DNA of 64,000 nucleotides, from NCBI RefSeq assembly GCF_030169785.1, contig NZ_CP125854.1, positions 868,001 through 932,000 on the forward strand. The letters are read 5' to 3'. Both the position numbers and the translations under genes were made by a program. Below are positions 17,377 through 26,201 of the stretch, piece by piece. The number at the start of each line of letters is the position of its first letter. Position 1 is the first letter of the stretch. The notes beneath the pieces are model-generated. The model saw only the letters and a list, made by a program, of their open reading frames with translations. It had not been told where the DNA came from and ran no database searches. The DNA is from Bdellovibrio sp. 22V. GTDB lineage: Bacteria; Bdellovibrionota; Bdellovibrionia; Bdellovibrionales; Bdellovibrionaceae.

Positions 17377-17393
17377 ATGCAAGTAATTTGCAT
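17377..17393. promoter_or_regulatory. palindromic operator of the metal-uptake operon
   Basis: ATGCAA-GTAAT-TTGCAT is a perfect 6-bp dyad with a 5-base spacer, 32 bases ahead of the first operon gene and close to the divergent regB-like gene. Position and A/T-rich symmetry fit a Fur-family (Zur/Mur) site. The sequence is not a textbook Zur box, so the regulator is inferred from context. Confidence 0.6.
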
Positions 17394-17448
17394 TTATATT
17401 TTTACGCTGCCCCCCATTATTCTATGCCGCGAAGGCCGCAATGCTGAG

Positions 17449-18750
17449 ATGTTATGTCGCAGCAGCGAATTGTTGCGGCCTCAGAACGCCATTGCGGGAC
17501 CCTCGCCCCTCATATATGAAGTGTCCATGCCCGGACTTATTCGCTTTCGCTGGATCGCCATTGTCTTTTTGTTGCTAGGAACTTTGCCGCTTCTGAAGTG
17601 GGGGTATCTGCAACGCCGTGATTTTCCGTACGTCATCGCAGTTCTTATTTTGCTGGGGATCTTCAATATCTTAGCGCAGGGGATTTGGCCGAAAGAAGAA
17701 ACAGCGAAACAAAGACACGTTCTTGTTCATCTGTGGATTGACCTTCTGGCAGCGGTCGGACTTTTATTTGTCAGTGGTTCCGCAAACAATCCCTTTGTCA
17801 GCATTCTTTGCATCCATTCCTTTTTGGGAGGCATGCTTTTGCGCGGTCGCGGTTCTTACCTGTTCGGGGCGACGGTCCTGATTCTTTTGGGATTGCTGCA
17901 AATCGAAACTTATCTTGATGCACGCATGACGGTGGGCTTTGATCCTTCCGAGTTGTTTGTCAGTTTTCTGTCGCAATGGGTTTTGATCACGGCTTCTTGG
18001 CTTGTCAGTCATTATTTTTCACAGCTCTTGCACAAAAACGAAATGCGCATTCGCCTGCTGCAAAACCGTCAGCATCAAGCCGACCGCTTAAAATCCTTGG
18101 GAGCTTTAACGGCCGGTTTTTCGCATCAACTGGCAACGCCGATGAATTCTTTGTCTTTAAGAATGGAAAGAGGCCTGCGCAAACTTGAAACTCAAGAAGT
18201 GCTCTCGGCCCGCGAAGAGTTTGTAAAAGCGCAAAACTCTTTACAAGAATGTGTTCAGGTTTTTCAACACATGGCTTCGATCTTTTCCCGCTCTTCGGAA
18301 GCTGAATTGCAAACCGTGACTCTGAATCGCCTGGTGCCGGATTTAATCAAAGTGTGGGAAAAAGAACATCCGCCAACGCAAGTTGAACACCAGGCCATGG
18401 CAGAGACGATGAAATGTCGTTTGCATGTGCTGGCCTTCTCGCAAACTTTCTTGGACTTGTTGGACAATGCCTATGAAGCTTCGACTTCATCCCAACCTCT
18501 CTATGTGCGACTGTATAAGGATATGAATTGGGCGGTGCTTGAAGTAACGGATTTGGGACCAGGATTGTCGCAAGAAATTCTGTCTCGCTTAGGCGAGCCT
18601 TTTGTTACCAGCAAAGCGGACGGCAATGGTTTAGGTCTTTACTCCGCCTCGATGATGGCGCAAGCTGCCGGCGGGGAGTTTGAAATTTTTAATAACAGTT
18701 CCGGTAAGGGCGCGACGGCGAAACTGCGTCTGCCTTTGGAGGAAGCATGA
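17449..18750 (+). CDS. regB: RegB/PrrB-type redox sensor histidine kinase
   Basis: The start is uncertain: ATGs at 17377 (inside the operator), 17449 and 17527 are all possible and none has a good ribosome site. From 17449 the product is 433 residues. About six membrane helices are followed by an H-box GFSHQLATPMNSLSLR and HATPase motifs (DLLDNAYEAS, DLGPGLS, GNGLGLYSAS). The membrane part contains GSANNPF, matching the quinone-binding GGxxNPF loop of RegB, and the H-box context matches RegB-type kinases. It senses respiratory redox state and phosphorylates the RegA-like partner whose start overlaps this stop. Confidence 0.85.
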   Translation: MLCRSSELLRPQNAIAGPSPLIYEVSMPGLIRFRWIAIVFLLLGTLPLLKWGYLQRRDFPYVIAVLILLGIFNILAQGIWPKEETAKQRHVLVHLWIDLLAAVGLLFVSGSANNPFVSILCIHSFLGGMLLRGRGSYLFGATVLILLGLLQIETYLDARMTVGFDPSELFVSFLSQWVLITASWLVSHYFSQLLHKNEMRIRLLQNRQHQADRLKSLGALTAGFSHQLATPMNSLSLRMERGLRKLETQEVLSAREEFVKAQNSLQECVQVFQHMASIFSRSSEAELQTVTLNRLVPDLIKVWEKEHPPTQVEHQAMAETMKCRLHVLAFSQTFLDLLDNAYEASTSSQPLYVRLYKDMNWAVLEVTDLGPGLSQEILSRLGEPFVTSKADGNGLGLYSASMMAQAAGGEFEIFNNSSGKGATAKLRLPLEEA

Positions 18751-19271
18751 TGGATATCAAAGGTAAAAAACTTTTATTAGTCGAAGACGACAAAGGTTTG
18801 CGCGAAGTTCTGACAGAAGAATTGCAAGAGCGCGGATTGATCGTAACAGCTTTTGCCGAAACTCCACCTATTGCCGAAATCGGAGAGCATGATTGGGCTC
18901 TTCTTGATTTGCGTGTAGGCTCTGAAAACAGTTTGGATTTTTTAAAAGAACTGAAGGCGAAATATTTCGGCACCAAAGTCGTCATGATGAGCGGATTCGG
19001 CAGTGTCGCTTCGGCGGTAAAGGCCATGCAGCTCGGAGCTTTTAACTTTATAGCAAAACCTGTAACGACAGATATGATTCTTAAGGCGTTTACCGATCAG
19101 CCTCTGGGCGAAGATGTTCCCGAGAAAGAAATTTCCCTGGCGCGGATGGAGCGCGAATATATCGATTATATTTTGCAGAATTCCGAAGGCAACATCACGC
19201 AAGCCGCGAAGAAGCTCGGTTTGCATCGTCAAAGTTTGCAAAGAAAACTTCGCAAGAACATTCCCAAATAA
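18747..19271 (+). CDS. regA: RegA/PrrA/ActR-type response regulator
   Basis: A 174-residue two-domain protein: receiver (LLVEDDKGLREVL, phospho-acceptor Asp in WALLDLRVGS, Lys in AKPVT) and a Fis-type helix-turn-helix (GNITQAAKKLGLHRQSLQRKLRK) that is nearly the invariant RegA recognition domain. It overlaps the kinase stop by four bases, with GGAGGAAGC ahead of the ATG. RegA-type regulators control respiration and other energy genes in proteobacteria; targets here are unknown. Confidence 0.92.
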   Translation: MMDIKGKKLLLVEDDKGLREVLTEELQERGLIVTAFAETPPIAEIGEHDWALLDLRVGSENSLDFLKELKAKYFGTKVVMMSGFGSVASAVKAMQLGAFNFIAKPVTTDMILKAFTDQPLGEDVPEKEISLARMEREYIDYILQNSEGNITQAAKKLGLHRQSLQRKLRKNIPK

Positions 19272-19842: not shown

Positions 19843-20415
19843 CTACTTCAAAAGGCTCTTTGAGCGGCTAAAGCCGATTTTTATCAACATGCGAAGCGCT
19901 TCGAGATCCGAACTGAGGTTAAAGTCCTCTTTGACTTCCTGAATCATGCCTCTAGAGCAGGAATCCAGCTGTTCCAAAATATCAGTATTGCGGGTCATCG
20001 CCGTCACCGTCTTTTCGGTATAAGAAACCTGAGTTTGTGTCGGAGTCGCCATCGCCGTTTGTGTTTGGCTGTGCGCTGCTGCCGCTTGCATTGTAACGAC
20101 CTGAGCCTGCTGTACCGGCTGCACAGGAGGAGGCGTGTGCACAACTGTCTGAGCCGCTACAGGTGCCGAACGGACCGGTCCATCGAGTTCGCCCATGATA
20201 CCAGCAAGGTTCTTCAATTCATTTTTGAAGTTCTGAATGCTCGGTCTTTCAAGAGCATGGTCACCGTCGCGAGTGGCTTTAAGATACAAGCTAACAAGAA
20301 TGTCCGGAGTCGTTGCCATCTCTTTGATCGAAGAGTTTTGCACCATCAGCCATTGGTAGGCTTTGAGCAAAATATCTTTCGTGTAAGCCTGTGGTGGCAG
20401 TGGGTTCATCGTCAT
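19843..20415 (-). CDS. conserved cytoplasmic protein of unknown function
   Basis: The start at 20415 follows GGAGA and gives 190 residues. The N-terminal part is helical (PQAYTKDILLKAYQWLM), the middle is a Gln/Pro/Thr/Ala-rich linker (about residues 85-135), and the C-terminal helix (NLSSDLEALRMLIKIGFSRS) resembles short DNA- or protein-binding C-termini. There is no signal peptide and no family I recognise. Confidence 0.68.
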   Translation of the reverse strand: MTMNPLPPQAYTKDILLKAYQWLMVQNSSIKEMATTPDILVSLYLKATRDGDHALERPSIQNFKNELKNLAGIMGELDGPVRSAPVAAQTVVHTPPPVQPVQQAQVVTMQAAAAHSQTQTAMATPTQTQVSYTEKTVTAMTRNTDILEQLDSCSRGMIQEVKEDFNLSSDLEALRMLIKIGFSRSKSLLK

Positions 20416-20471
20416 CAGCAAAAGTCTCCGGGGGCAGGGGACTGAAACTACAGATTCCATTACGACGAGTC

Positions 20472-20635: not shown

Positions 20636-22159
20636 TTAGTTCACGTAGTCTTTGGCGTTGATGCCGTATTTTTCAATCTTCCGAAGAAGTGTTTTCTTCG
20701 GAATATTCGCGTGGAGCGCTGTTTGATTGATACGGCCGCGGAAGGTCTTCAAAGCTTTGATGATAAATTCTTTTTCGAACGCTTCTTTCTGCGCATTGAA
20801 ATCAAGGCTTTCTGCACCAGAGAAAGGAACGATTTCTTCGCTATCTAGTTCGTCGGAATCAGAATCCATGTCGCCGTCTTCATCATCGTTGAGATTCGCG
20901 TGAGCCTGGACAGCCGGAGCAATTCCCGCAGAAGCAATGCTTTGAGCCGTTTCTAGAACAGGAACATCGATTAGATTTGTTCCCGTAGCGATCAGCAAAG
21001 ATTCTGGCAACGACGCGATTGTGATGATGTTTGTCATCTCAAGAACGAAGGCGTGTTCAATCACGTTTTCAAGTTCACGAATATTTCCCGGCCAAGAGTG
21101 CTTTTTCAAAACAGCCATGGCGTCGGGAGCAATACCGTTGATACGCTTGCCGTGCGCTTGGTTGAATTTCTTAATAAAGATATTCACCATGTGTTCCATA
21201 TCGTCTTTGCGTTCAGCCAAAGCCGGCAAGAAGATAGGTACGACGTTCAGGCGATAGAAAAGATCTTCGCGGAATGTGCCCGCTTTGATCATATCTTCCA
21301 ACGGACGATTGGTCGCAGCGATGATGCGAACGTTTGTTGGGAATTCGCGGTTAGAACCTACAGGAGTGAAAACCTTTTCTTGAAGAACGCGCAAGATTTT
21401 AACTTGCATCAATTGCGGCATATCGCCCACTTCATCCAAGAAAAGCGTTCCGCCTTCAGCAAATTGGAATTTACCGATTTTACGCTGATCCGCGCCCGTG
21501 AAAGAACCTTTTTCGTGTCCAAAAAGCTCAGACTCAAATAAGTTTTCAGGAATAGCCGAGCAGTTGATCGCAACAAATTTTTCGTCTTTGCGTGCAGAGT
21601 TGTAGTGGATCGCTTTAGCAACAAGCTCTTTACCTGTTCCCGAAGCCCCGCGAATCAAAACCGGAGTGTCAACTTTAGCAAGACGGTGAATGATGTTAAA
21701 CACCTTCTGCATTTGCGAAGTATGACCGATGATTTTGCGGCCGGCCTCAACCATCACAGGAGCAGAGGCTGCAATATTTGAAATCAAATTGTGGGCATTC
21801 ACAGCTTTGTCGATCAGCTGCAGAAGATCTTCACTGCCAACCGGTTTTTGCAGATAGTTGTAGGCACCGTCTTTTACAGCTTGAATCGCGTCGTTCAAAG
21901 TCGCGTGAGCTGTCATGATGATAACGATGATACCTGGATCGAATTCTTTGATTTGGCGAAGAGCCTCTAGTCCGTTCATGCGAGGCATGTCGACATCGAG
22001 AATGACGAGGTCATATTTCTTCTCACTCGCTTTAACTTTCTCAAGTGCATTGACGCCGTCGAAAGCTTCATCCACTTCGAAACGTTGCGTGATTGCGAGT
22101 GCCGATTTGACGGACAATCTTAAGCCCTGATCGTCATCAACAACCAAAACCTTAAGCAT
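20636..22159 (-). CDS. NtrC-family sigma-54 response regulator of the peptide-linked operon
   Basis: A 507-residue activator: receiver (VLVVDDDQGLRLSV, Asp in LVILDVDMPRMNG), AAA+ sigma-54 domain (Walker A GASGTGKELVAKA; sigma-54 contact loop GSFTGA, a variant of GAFTGA; Walker B GGTLFLDEVGDMP; R-finger ATNRPLEDM), an acidic linker (DDEDGDMDSDSDELDSEE) and a Fis-type helix-turn-helix (GRINQTALHANIPKKTLLRKI). It overlaps the CHASE2 kinase gene by eight bases, so the kinase is its likely partner. It is the last gene of the operon that begins with the SPASM radical SAM enzyme at 25509. Confidence 0.93.
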   Translation of the reverse strand: MLKVLVVDDDQGLRLSVKSALAITQRFEVDEAFDGVNALEKVKASEKKYDLVILDVDMPRMNGLEALRQIKEFDPGIIVIIMTAHATLNDAIQAVKDGAYNYLQKPVGSEDLLQLIDKAVNAHNLISNIAASAPVMVEAGRKIIGHTSQMQKVFNIIHRLAKVDTPVLIRGASGTGKELVAKAIHYNSARKDEKFVAINCSAIPENLFESELFGHEKGSFTGADQRKIGKFQFAEGGTLFLDEVGDMPQLMQVKILRVLQEKVFTPVGSNREFPTNVRIIAATNRPLEDMIKAGTFREDLFYRLNVVPIFLPALAERKDDMEHMVNIFIKKFNQAHGKRINGIAPDAMAVLKKHSWPGNIRELENVIEHAFVLEMTNIITIASLPESLLIATGTNLIDVPVLETAQSIASAGIAPAVQAHANLNDDEDGDMDSDSDELDSEEIVPFSGAESLDFNAQKEAFEKEFIIKALKTFRGRINQTALHANIPKKTLLRKIEKYGINAKDYVN

Positions 22160-24026
22160 GTGTACCCCCTTGCTCGATTGGTAGTTCTACCGTAAAAGTC
22201 GATCCATTACCATGGGAAGATTCTACAAAAATCCGTCCCCTGTGCAGTTCTGTAAAATATTTCGCCAAATACAAACCTAAGCCGGAACCCTTGATAGGAG
22301 AGCTTTTGGCATTCTTTGAGCGGAAAAACTTCATAAAAATATTCTGTAATTCATCCGAAGGAATGCCGGGCCCCTGATCGGCGACTTGGACGATCACTTT
22401 TTCGCTGGTTTCCTCGCTGGAAACCATGATTTTCGTGTCTTCGGGACTGTACTTAATCGCATTTTCAACCAGGTTCGAAAAGACCTGTTTCATCAAATCG
22501 GCATCAACAGGGACTGGGAACATGGGTTCCAGTTCAGAAACGATTTGGATTCGTTTCACTTTTGCAAGGAACTCGTGCTTACGAATCACCTCTTGCAGAA
22601 GGTTGTTGATATCCTTGCTTTGCAAATTAAGCTGCACGCCTTGGCTTTCGATCCGGCCGTAATTCAAAATCGCATTGATAAATTTTAGAAGGTCGTCGGA
22701 AGAGTGTTTGATTGTATCGACCGCTTCGCGCTGTTGCGGGCTGAGTTGTACGGTATCGGAAAGAATCATGTCCGTCATTCCCTGAATGCGCGCAATCGGT
22801 GTTTTCAAGTCGTGCGACATCATCGAAATGAAGTTCGTTTTTAACTCTTCAACTTGGCTTAATAGTTTATTCTTTTGGTAGTATTCCCAGCTGCGGCGGT
22901 TTTCGACGATCAGACGGTAAGGAATGAAGAAGTAATAACAGAGGAAAATAGTTAAAAGAGGGGCTGCCATCGGAAGCCACCAGCCGCCCAACCAAAATGC
23001 AACGGCGCTAAAGCCCACGAAGCCGGCAAGCGTGCTCGCTAAAACGATAAGACCCCGCGTAGGTTTCATCGTCAGCACAACATGTGTCGTAAGAATCGAT
23101 GCTAATAAAATAAAGAGCCAGTTCACAAACTTAGGCGCTTTTTGCGGACCCGAGTTGCGAATCAAAGTGTCGATCGTGTTAGCCTGCAACTCAATACGAG
23201 TCATCGCGGTGACTTCGCGGCTGTAAGGACTTGTGATGTATTCCGCTTCGTCCAAACCTAAATCGGTCCCGATCAAAACGATTTTGTCTTTAAAGCGTGA
23301 AGCCTCTGCCTGTCCCGAAACAACGGACTCGAAGGAAGACGAAGGGTAAGTTTTCGCGGGATGGAAATCAATGTATGCTTGATCGGTTCCATAGAAATCA
23401 AAATGCCCGCGAACGTTTTTAATATCCGCCGCCGCAGGATTTACGAGACTAGCAAGTTGAACAGGCAACAACGAGCGGCCCTGGTACGTCAAAATCATAC
23501 GGCGAGTAACACCGTCTTTTGCGAAGTTGACGAGATCCGTTGTCTTCGGAGCCGGAGACAACGACATTTTTTCCAGAGGATCAGCCAAGAAAAGTTGATT
23601 TTCTTCGCCCTTAAGCGGTGTCGTTCGTCCCGCGACAAAAACATTTCCACTTTGTACGACGGTGGCTTCCCACTCGTTTTTCTCGGGAGTGGAGCCGGGT
23701 GTTTCAACCACGTTGAAATCATAAACCACCGCTTTTGCACCGGCAGCTTCCAGGTTTTTCAAAAGGGCGTTTTGTTCTTTTGCGGAAGGCAGGCCCTTAT
23801 AAAGCTGTACGGTTTGCGGCGTGATGTAGATGAGTTCGATATTCCCAGAAGTCGGATTAAAAAGCTTAGTGCGAACGCGAAGGTCGTAAAGGTACGATTC
23901 AATATATTCAAGATTAATCTGCGCAATAAAGAATGAGATGCCCATGGCGAACGCCATACGCAAAGCGACCTTATAAGCTCCTCTTTTGGAGGAGGATGTC
24001 TCTTCAAGGGAGGGAGGAAGAGTCAT
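22152..24026 (-). CDS. CHASE2-domain sensor histidine kinase of the peptide-linked operon
   Basis: A 624-residue membrane kinase. One N-terminal helix (FAMGISFFIAQI) is followed by a CHASE2 sensor outside the inner membrane (about residues 40-290; YLYDLRVRTKLF, DLGLDEAEYITSPYS, IELQANTIDTLI). Three membrane helices follow (about 300-375), then HisKA (FISMMSHDLKTPIAR, phospho-His) and HATPase (NLVENAIKYSPE, DQGPGIP, KGSGLGLYLAKYF). It should phosphorylate the NtrC-type regulator with which it overlaps. The gene begins 32 bases after the stop of the 38-residue peptide gene, in the same orientation. The CHASE2 ligand is unknown; the operon suggests a maturated peptide as candidate. Confidence 0.92.
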   Translation of the reverse strand: MTLPPSLEETSSSKRGAYKVALRMAFAMGISFFIAQINLEYIESYLYDLRVRTKLFNPTSGNIELIYITPQTVQLYKGLPSAKEQNALLKNLEAAGAKAVVYDFNVVETPGSTPEKNEWEATVVQSGNVFVAGRTTPLKGEENQLFLADPLEKMSLSPAPKTTDLVNFAKDGVTRRMILTYQGRSLLPVQLASLVNPAAADIKNVRGHFDFYGTDQAYIDFHPAKTYPSSSFESVVSGQAEASRFKDKIVLIGTDLGLDEAEYITSPYSREVTAMTRIELQANTIDTLIRNSGPQKAPKFVNWLFILLASILTTHVVLTMKPTRGLIVLASTLAGFVGFSAVAFWLGGWWLPMAAPLLTIFLCYYFFIPYRLIVENRRSWEYYQKNKLLSQVEELKTNFISMMSHDLKTPIARIQGMTDMILSDTVQLSPQQREAVDTIKHSSDDLLKFINAILNYGRIESQGVQLNLQSKDINNLLQEVIRKHEFLAKVKRIQIVSELEPMFPVPVDADLMKQVFSNLVENAIKYSPEDTKIMVSSEETSEKVIVQVADQGPGIPSDELQNIFMKFFRSKNAKSSPIKGSGLGLYLAKYFTELHRGRIFVESSHGNGSTFTVELPIEQGGTHA

Positions 24027-24058: not shown

Positions 24059-24175
24059 CTAACGTACCGGAATGCAGCCTTCACCAGTTCCACCAGTGCC
24101 AGGTCCCATCAATTGAGTCGACGGAGTTGTCACGGGTTTCAGAGGTTTGATTTTTTTAATATGTGTCTGTTTCAT
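24059..24175 (-). CDS. 38-residue candidate RiPP precursor peptide
   Basis: This small gene has a strong ribosome site (GAGGAC, six bases before ATG 24175) and starts 11 bases after the stop of the radical SAM gene. The peptide has a basic N-terminal half (MKQTHIKKIKPLKPV), a Thr/Pro/Ser spacer (TTPSTQ), and a glycine-rich C-terminus with one Cys (GPGTGGTGEGCIPVR). A lysine-rich leader and a short Gly/Cys core next to a SPASM radical SAM enzyme is the standard layout of a ribosomally made, post-translationally modified peptide. I recognise no known precursor family (not PqqA, mycofactocin, SCIFF or sactipeptide-like with several Cys). Direct evidence is the frame, ribosome site and operon position; the RiPP role is inference. 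Confidence 0.75.
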   Translation of the reverse strand: MKQTHIKKIKPLKPVTTPSTQLMGPGTGGTGEGCIPVR

Positions 24176-24186
24176 AAATGTCCTCA

Positions 24187-25509
24187 TTAGCAGGAAACCC
24201 TGCTTTTTTTATAATATAACAATGCAGTTCCAATCAAGCTGCGAGTGCGGAAGCAAAACTGACCATCTTTTTGGTGTTTGTTTCCGGTTGCTTGCTTGTG
24301 AATGAACATACAGCCACCGCCGCACATAAAGCGGGCCCAGCAGTTTTGGCAGCTGTTCTGTTCAATAAGGGGCGCCTCATACCCTTTCAGACGCTCCTCA
24401 TTGAGTTCGCTTCCTTGTCCCACTTGTTCGGCCTTATTGCCGACTTCCCACGGGCATGTGAAGAGGTTGTTCTTCGCATCCACCATCAAGAAGGACTTGC
24501 CGGCGCCACAGAAATTTTCTGTCTGTTGTTGGTTATCGAGCGCCGAGAAGTATTGATCAAAAAGGCCGATTTTGCGCAACTCAGATTCACCGCCTGCAGC
24601 ATAAGCGCGGGCGGCGATTTCATTCATTTGCGCTACGAACTCTTTATTGCTGGCGTCGTCGTTTTCTTCAACGGAGTAAGTGAATTCGTAACGATCGACG
24701 TTCAGCGAACGGTAAAACTCATAAGCCGCAATCACGTTCAAGTTTTCGCGATTGAAAACGCCGTGCGCGGTAAGAAGGCCCAAAGACTCTTTAGCTGCTA
24801 CAAGCTGACGAAGACCTTCGACGACAAGAGCTGTGCTGCCAGCGCCGTTTTTCATAGGGCGAGCTTTGTCGTTAGACTCTGCAGGACCGTCCACGCTGAC
24901 AGTCACGTTGGCTTTGATGTTTTTCAAAACTTGCAAAGTTTTTTCGTTAATTAAAGTTCCATTTGTCACGATGGAAAAACCAGCTTGAATATTTCTTCCC
25001 GCCGTCATCAAGCGCACGTAATTGCTGATTTCCTGAATTCCCTCAGGATACAAAAGCGGCTCGCCGCCCAAGAAAGTGATTTTAAAACGGCTGTTGTCGG
25101 GAAGGCGTTCGATAAAGAACTTCAATTGTGGCAAAGTTTTTTCAACGTTGATTTTTGTTTGCGGAGAGCCGTAAGTTCCGTCTCCGCCGGCCGCGCAATA
25201 AGTGCACTTCAAATTGCAGATTTGCGTGACGTTGATGGTAAGGCTACGGATGCCCGGAGAAAGCTTTCCTGATTTCACCTCAGGGTTATTTTCTTGTTCC
25301 CAGTTTTGCAATTCTTCAGAAACGTCGGAAGTCAGGATTTGTTTTTCCATTACTTCCCACATCTCTTCCGAGATCTCAGCGACTTCAAGATTGCGGGCAT
25401 GGAAAGCCAGCGGAGCTCCCTGGTTCCATTTAAATGCCACAATGTCTTTGAATCGTCGTTGTTCCATGCCGTAAGTGAGGACTGCAATAAGCGTTCCATA
25501 ATGAGACAT
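24187..25509 (-). CDS. SPASM-domain radical SAM peptide maturase
   Basis: A 440-residue enzyme, first gene of the operon. Residues 1-80 form an N-terminal extension (AFHARNLEVAEISEEMWEVM) that could bind a leader peptide. The radical SAM core has CNLKCTYC (Cys 98, 102, 105), TFLGGEPLL, a VTNGTLI strand and VSVDGPAE. The SPASM region holds Cys 334 and Cys 352, then a CX2CX5CX3C cluster (Cys 387, 390, 396, 400) and Cys 419, enough for two auxiliary 4Fe-4S clusters. Such enzymes install thioether, C-C or other crosslinks in peptides, or act as sulfatase maturases; no sulfatase gene is nearby and a small peptide gene follows immediately. An extra Cys ends the protein. The start is uncertain: ATG 25509 or 25467, both with weak ribosome sites. 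Confidence 0.9.
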   Translation of the reverse strand: MSHYGTLIAVLTYGMEQRRFKDIVAFKWNQGAPLAFHARNLEVAEISEEMWEVMEKQILTSDVSEELQNWEQENNPEVKSGKLSPGIRSLTINVTQICNLKCTYCAAGGDGTYGSPQTKINVEKTLPQLKFFIERLPDNSRFKITFLGGEPLLYPEGIQEISNYVRLMTAGRNIQAGFSIVTNGTLINEKTLQVLKNIKANVTVSVDGPAESNDKARPMKNGAGSTALVVEGLRQLVAAKESLGLLTAHGVFNRENLNVIAAYEFYRSLNVDRYEFTYSVEENDDASNKEFVAQMNEIAARAYAAGGESELRKIGLFDQYFSALDNQQQTENFCGAGKSFLMVDAKNNLFTCPWEVGNKAEQVGQGSELNEERLKGYEAPLIEQNSCQNCWARFMCGGGCMFIHKQATGNKHQKDGQFCFRTRSLIGTALLYYKKSRVSC

Positions 25510-25754: not shown

Positions 25755-26201
25755 ATGTTCAATGCAAGTACTTCCCACGGCAAAAGATTCGTAGATCAAC
25801 AGGTGCTCAAACTCAAGAATGGGGAAATCCTTTTTCGTGAAGGTGATCTCAGTCGTGAAATGTATATCGTGCAACACGGGAGCATCGAAGTTTTTAAAAA
25901 GGTCGATGAGAAAACCATTATCCTCGGTCGTGTGGAAAGAGGCAGTATGGTGGGAGAGATGTCACTTCTGGAATCTCTGCCGCGCTCGGCTTCAGCGCAA
26001 GCGGTGGGCGAGACCACGCTTTTGGTTTTTGATCCGGGCAGCTTTCTTTTAAAAATTCGCCGCGACCCCACATTTGCTTTTGAGCTGATGAAGCTTCTAA
26101 GTGGTCGCATCCGTCAGACCAACGAAAAGTTGGTAGCATTGTTGGCTGCGGAACAGCTCTCTAAAAACGCTCTCGAAAAAGTGGTTGAGTCGAATTTATG
26201 A
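25755..26201 (+). CDS. cyclic-nucleotide-binding domain protein
   Basis: A 148-residue single-domain protein. The cNMP barrel is well preserved: GEILFREGDLSREMYIVQ, GSMVGEMSLLES and LPRSASAQAV with the phosphate-binding Arg, so it probably binds cAMP or a related nucleotide. It has no helix-turn-helix, so it is not a CRP-type transcription factor by itself; the C-terminal helix could dimerise. Its stop overlaps the next gene by four bases (ATGA), coupling it to a metallophosphoesterase. Confidence 0.88.
   Translation: MFNASTSHGKRFVDQQVLKLKNGEILFREGDLSREMYIVQHGSIEVFKKVDEKTIILGRVERGSMVGEMSLLESLPRSASAQAVGETTLLVFDPGSFLLKIRRDPTFAFELMKLLSGRIRQTNEKLVALLAAEQLSKNALEKVVESNL

Follow-up and report, generated by a model that had tools for sequence, protein, structure and literature searches.

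The stretch of DNA analysed here (the window, 64,000 nt of contig NZ_CP125854.1 of Bdellovibrio sp. 22V) carries on its minus strand the genes for a radical SAM (rSAM)/SPASM enzyme, a very short peptide, a CHASE2 sensor histidine kinase and an NtrC-like response regulator (Table 1). The short ORF, read from 24175 down to 24059, encodes MKQTHIKKIKPLKPVTTPSTQLMGPGTGGTGEGCIPVR*. It lies 11 nt from the rSAM gene and 32 nt from the kinase gene, and with these gaps, and with the kinase and regulator genes overlapping, the four genes are likely to be transcribed together. The first-pass annotation named neither the strand nor the neighbouring enzyme and signalling genes. A promoter and terminator scan returned nothing usable on the operon, only a terminator-like match on the plus strand: at 24189-24204 (+), over the rSAM stop codon, the hairpin AGCAGGAAACCCTGCT precedes a T run in plus orientation. 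The surroundings contain a lone 148-aa cyclic-nucleotide-binding domain protein at 25755-26201 (+), divergent from the rSAM gene and outside the conserved module; a 205-aa protein at 19843-20460 (-) with no Pfam or NCBIfam match, found behind the regulator in the majority of the order's genomes, rSAM-less ones included; and, at 17377-19271 (+), a second sensor kinase/response regulator pair that is conserved with lspA in many relatives.

Table 1. Features of the locus, in window coordinates, with the evidence for each.
Feature	Coordinates	Strand	Evidence and remarks
Radical SAM/SPASM peptide maturase, listed at 440 aa, with Met14 (25470) the likely start; RRE-like N-terminus	24187..25509	-	Profiles, alignments, AF2 model, structure matches
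Ribosome-binding site GAGGA	24181..24185	-	5 nt before ATG 24175; sequence and relatives
Precursor peptide gene, 38 codons + stop	24059..24175	-	Homologues, purifying selection, fixed place after rSAM gene
Leader motif HIKKIKP	24143..24163	-	Kept in most homologues; IKKI a beta strand in the AF2 fusion
C-terminal core GEGCIPVR	24062..24085	-	Cys codon 24074-24076 encodes the only invariant core residue
CHASE2 sensor histidine kinase	22152..24026	-	Next conserved gene after peptide; Pfam, locus comparison, tree
NtrC-like sigma-54 response regulator	20636..22159	-	Overlaps kinase gene by 8 nt

The 38-residue ORF is a real, conserved gene. A tblastn search of 40 relatives, the check proposed by the first-pass annotation, identified clear homologues in 11 further species of the genus, with E-values from 1.2e-18 to 6.1e-7, and in the closest pair there are 18.3 synonymous differences over 28.3 sites and 7.7 nonsynonymous differences over 85.7 sites, i.e., pS of 0.65 and pN of 0.09 per site, which marks strong purifying selection. 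These two results are the strongest independent support for the peptide family, which has no match in NCBIfam or Pfam. The strong ribosome site read from the sequence alone was also borne out: a purine-rich AGAGGA-type site before the same ATG recurs in relatives, so that the start at 24175 is better supported than the alternative in-frame ATG at 24187, which overlaps the rSAM stop.

To describe the family more widely we read the sequence that follows each rSAM gene, which yielded 51 peptides. The list was curated by hand with guidance from the motifs, so the figures for the Cys and the leader are partly built in by the search. A single core Cys is found in all 51 peptides (one peptide has a second Cys, in the leader), and a Pro follows at +2 in 48 of them; the other three, all from one clade, read C-P-E. 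The leader motif H-I-K-K-[IV]-x-P is clear in most peptides and weaker in a few (FIKKLN, HVQKIKP), and its distance to the Cys ranges from 17 to 70 residues. The proposed basic leader and Cys-centred modified core are thus well matched by the family, and GEGCIPVR is indeed the conserved part in near relatives, but further out it shrinks to C-x-P. The stretch around TTPSTQ, rich in Gly and Thr and stressed in the first-pass annotation, varies freely among homologues, which leaves it unsupported as the functional part. Gly is the commonest residue at -1 and -3 (32/51 each), and among side chains only Cys and Pro are fixed, so that the acceptor of a crosslink is not readable from conservation. 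A fixed Asp/Glu acceptor was considered and rejected, an acid being present at -4 to -1 in only 28 of the 51 peptides, and Thr or Gly as the modified site was rejected too, neither being conserved; the modification of Thr raised by the first-pass annotation is thus not supported.

A Cys peptide follows the rSAM gene in every locus where the region is present and was read. In genomes without the rSAM gene, a search with a peptide profile gave no convincing copy, an absence that carries little weight because the profile also missed two known divergent positives (G034 and G035).

The layout of the locus is that of a radical SAM RiPP cluster: a short leader-core precursor adjoining an rSAM enzyme with CxxxCxxC. 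This motif and seven SPASM Cys are invariant among 44 members of the enzyme family, and the enzyme belongs to the SPASM group. Its N-terminus has a PqqD-like wing and helices that align to the RRE of CteB (5wgg) from model residue 21, although a Pfam search of the enzyme gave no PqqD match. No NCBIfam cut-off is passed. The best scores are those for the PapB ranthipeptide maturases (NF047865, 187.5 bits against a cut-off of 340), the nif11-type (179.8 bits), the SCIFF maturases (TIGR03974, 136.9 bits against 425) and QhpD (133.3 bits); the anaerobic sulfatase maturases score 87.8 bits against 349.45 (TIGR03942). The AF2 model of the enzyme (pLDDT 90) has CteB as its best match, with a Foldseek TM of 0.80 and a VIA-align Z of 37.6 over 397 residues; since this alignment spans model residues 21-437, it includes the RRE. 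For the anaerobic sulfatase-maturating enzyme anSMEcpe the Z is 31.5.

In the HMM alignment the enzyme family has CGxG at the Aux I site, as does CteB (CGSG), compared with CGMNGTCTC in anSME, and the residue after the next Aux I Cys (C352 here) is P, N, V or Q in the family, H in CteB and D in anSMEcpe (YPCDF). In anSME, the Asp after the Aux I Cys is the catalytic base. Judged from sequence, the seven invariant SPASM Cys should leave Aux I open, as is the case for CteB: one Aux I iron is open there, while Aux I of anSME is fully ligated (PMC6231123). With the extra Aux I Cys and the post-Cys Asp of anSME missing, formylglycine is less likely than a Cys thioether even though the peptide ends in CxPxR, and the thioether is the likely product. 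Our confidence in this chemistry is moderate, since sequence is a poor guide to what SPASM enzymes catalyse (PMC6231123). A Cys-derived crosslink, one of the initial suggestions, is therefore still the best chemical guess; the link to an alpha carbon suggested with it is unsupported, the enzyme being closest to the maturases of non-alpha thioethers (ranthipeptides).

In six relatives the rSAM enzyme and the peptide lie in one frame, split by a stop. When this stop is read as Gln and the read-through fusion is folded by AF2, IKKI in the leader adopts a strand conformation (pLDDT of this block about 67, moderate) and the core is disordered. The model lends weak support to docking of the leader on the RRE-like N-terminus of the enzyme.

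The enzyme is found in 39 of 60 relatives, including 23 of the 24 genus genomes, and at E<=1e-60 in 42 of the 241 genomes of a sample drawn from the phylum. All 42 belong to the order Bdellovibrionales; outside this order the sample gave no match at that threshold. In a scan of GTDB contigs, identity falls from at least 39% in Bdellovibrionota to at most 28% for full-length matches elsewhere.

Within the order, the enzyme-peptide-kinase arrangement is kept in every locus long enough to tell, and the rSAM/peptide pair has been found only directly upstream of the CHASE2 kinase gene. In each of the 34 loci compared, the kinase comes next among the conserved genes while the outer flanking genes vary, and the regulator is recognised after it in 33 of them, the exception (L089) probably being masked by a long antisense ORF. 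The conserved module contains no exporter and no protease. A second, distant kinase (about 21-23% identity, with HisKA/HATPase and a marginal CHASE2) lies divergent beside the module in three loci (L074:7492-9729, L085:7548-9734 and L101:3616-5793), and L116 also has a distant second kinase upstream of the module kinase.

The dependence between the genes runs in one direction. The kinase is found in 54 of the 60 relatives, 15 of them without the rSAM gene (two of these, G007 and G046, are cut by contig ends, and G027 has only a weak kinase match), and there are no cases of the rSAM gene without the kinase. Because the kinase-regulator pair occurs without the enzyme and peptide but never the reverse, the latter two appear to serve the kinase; the peptide is nevertheless not strictly required by the kinase, which a number of lineages retain without it. 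The kinase tree requires the rSAM state to change four times, and carriers sit on both of its sides; this pattern agrees with an ancestral association lost on several occasions. Counting from flgE (Bd3395) in a relative presumed to be HD100 (G006) would place the module kinase near Bd3359-3366. Lambert et al. (PMC2797640) found the sensor-kinase genes Bd3359 and Bd3360 to be induced in predation, a possible correspondence that is given no weight here.

From this we infer that the enzyme acts on the adjoining peptide, and that the product acts on the kinase. On balance it seems probable that the ORF is the precursor of an rSAM-modified RiPP, with a docking leader and a Cys thioether, that works as a cell-associated signal or regulator for the CHASE2/NtrC-like system. 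Specifically, the SPASM enzyme encoded next door would bind the H-I-K-K-[IV]-x-P leader at its RRE-like N-terminus, and the lone core Cys (C-x-P) would coordinate, through its thiol, the iron left open in Aux I. The 5'-deoxyadenosyl radical would abstract an H from a residue nearby, so that the peptide would end up with a single Cys thioether near its C-terminal end. This product would be a signal to, or a regulator of, the kinase and NtrC-like regulator of its own operon rather than a secreted antibiotic. A signalling role for the modified peptide is well motivated. The more specific idea that the CHASE2 kinase has this peptide as its dedicated internal ligand or co-sensor, so that predatory bacteria would make a RiPP for the two-component system encoded with it and with neither exporter nor protease, is more tentative, and we lean against it. 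Against the favoured explanation as a whole stand the missing conserved acceptor near the Cys, the scores under all NCBIfam cut-offs, the lack of an exporter or protease, and the lineages in which the kinase is kept without the peptide.

Three rival explanations were weighed. If the enzyme oxidised the Cys of C-x-P-x-R to formylglycine, as the anaerobic sulfatase maturases do, the result would be an aldehyde-bearing peptide, and a reaction at a single residue would explain why no acceptor is conserved. The genus peptides end in CIPVR, CIPIR or CVPVR, exact matches to CxPxR, the Pro at +2 is nearly constant, and the enzyme resembles this group both in its TIGR03942 match and in the fit to anSMEcpe. 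However, that profile score is far under its cut-off, the Asp and the extra Cys of anSME are absent from Aux I, the Arg at +4 persists only in near relatives, and C-P-E takes the place of C-x-P in three peptides. With the anSME residues missing and the Arg lost, formylglycine was demoted from its place as the main alternative, and we regard it as improbable. Even less can be said for a small redox- or metal-handling Cys peptide, with the Cys unmodified or chemically primed by the rSAM enzyme. It would fit one invariant Cys near a Pro with no fixed acceptor, but because a dedicated rSAM enzyme with an RRE and a leader motif always accompany the peptide, the modification itself seems to matter, and this explanation is very improbable.

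A different kind of alternative is a RiPP whose product acts outside the cell, as a toxin or pheromone, with its production merely controlled by the two-component system. RiPP clusters are often under such control, and CHASE2, for which the kinase has a Pfam match, is an extracytoplasmic sensor domain. The conserved module without exporter or protease argues against it, as does the survival of the kinase-regulator pair in several lineages that have lost the peptide, from which it follows that the pair must control other genes too. We therefore think an outside-acting product unlikely, and prefer the cell-associated signal or regulator.

We conclude that the ORF encodes a radical SAM RiPP precursor specific to one order, which represents a new family and has an unusual partner; a search of the literature found no description of a Bdellovibrio rSAM RiPP. 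If this is right, the peptide family is an undescribed one and its core is very simple, with a single Cys and a single Pro close to the C-terminal end. Almost all of the family to which Bdellovibrio belongs carries the rSAM/peptide pair, and a 38-residue gene is easily overlooked in predatory bacteria of this group. That the pair is maintained next to a kinase rather than next to transporters suggests that sensors can include a RiPP.

Among known systems, the anaerobic sulfatase-maturating enzymes share the SPASM fold, and their CxPxR motif is matched by the genus peptides, but the enzyme described here differs from them at Aux I, as above, and has an RRE-like N-terminal domain. The PapB-type maturases (NF047865) give the best NCBIfam score, still below their cut-off, and the peptide lacks repeated Cys-acceptor motifs; similarly, there is no equivalent around the Cys of the conserved acceptor in families with a fixed Cx3D or NxxC spacing. 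CteA/CteB, a SCIFF ranthipeptide system, provides the best fold match, with the same combination of RRE, radical SAM and SPASM domains, CGxG at Aux I and the extra Cys missing. SCIFF peptides have six Cys in about 45 residues, compared with one C-terminal Cys here, and the enzyme is far under the TIGR03974 cut-off. In the small peptide NxxcA of Streptococcus orisratti, a single thioether joins Cys23 to Asn20 (PMC8326336). The peptides described here are likewise small, but position -3 is Gly in 32 of 51 and never Asn, and the enzyme-peptide pair is tied to a two-component system.
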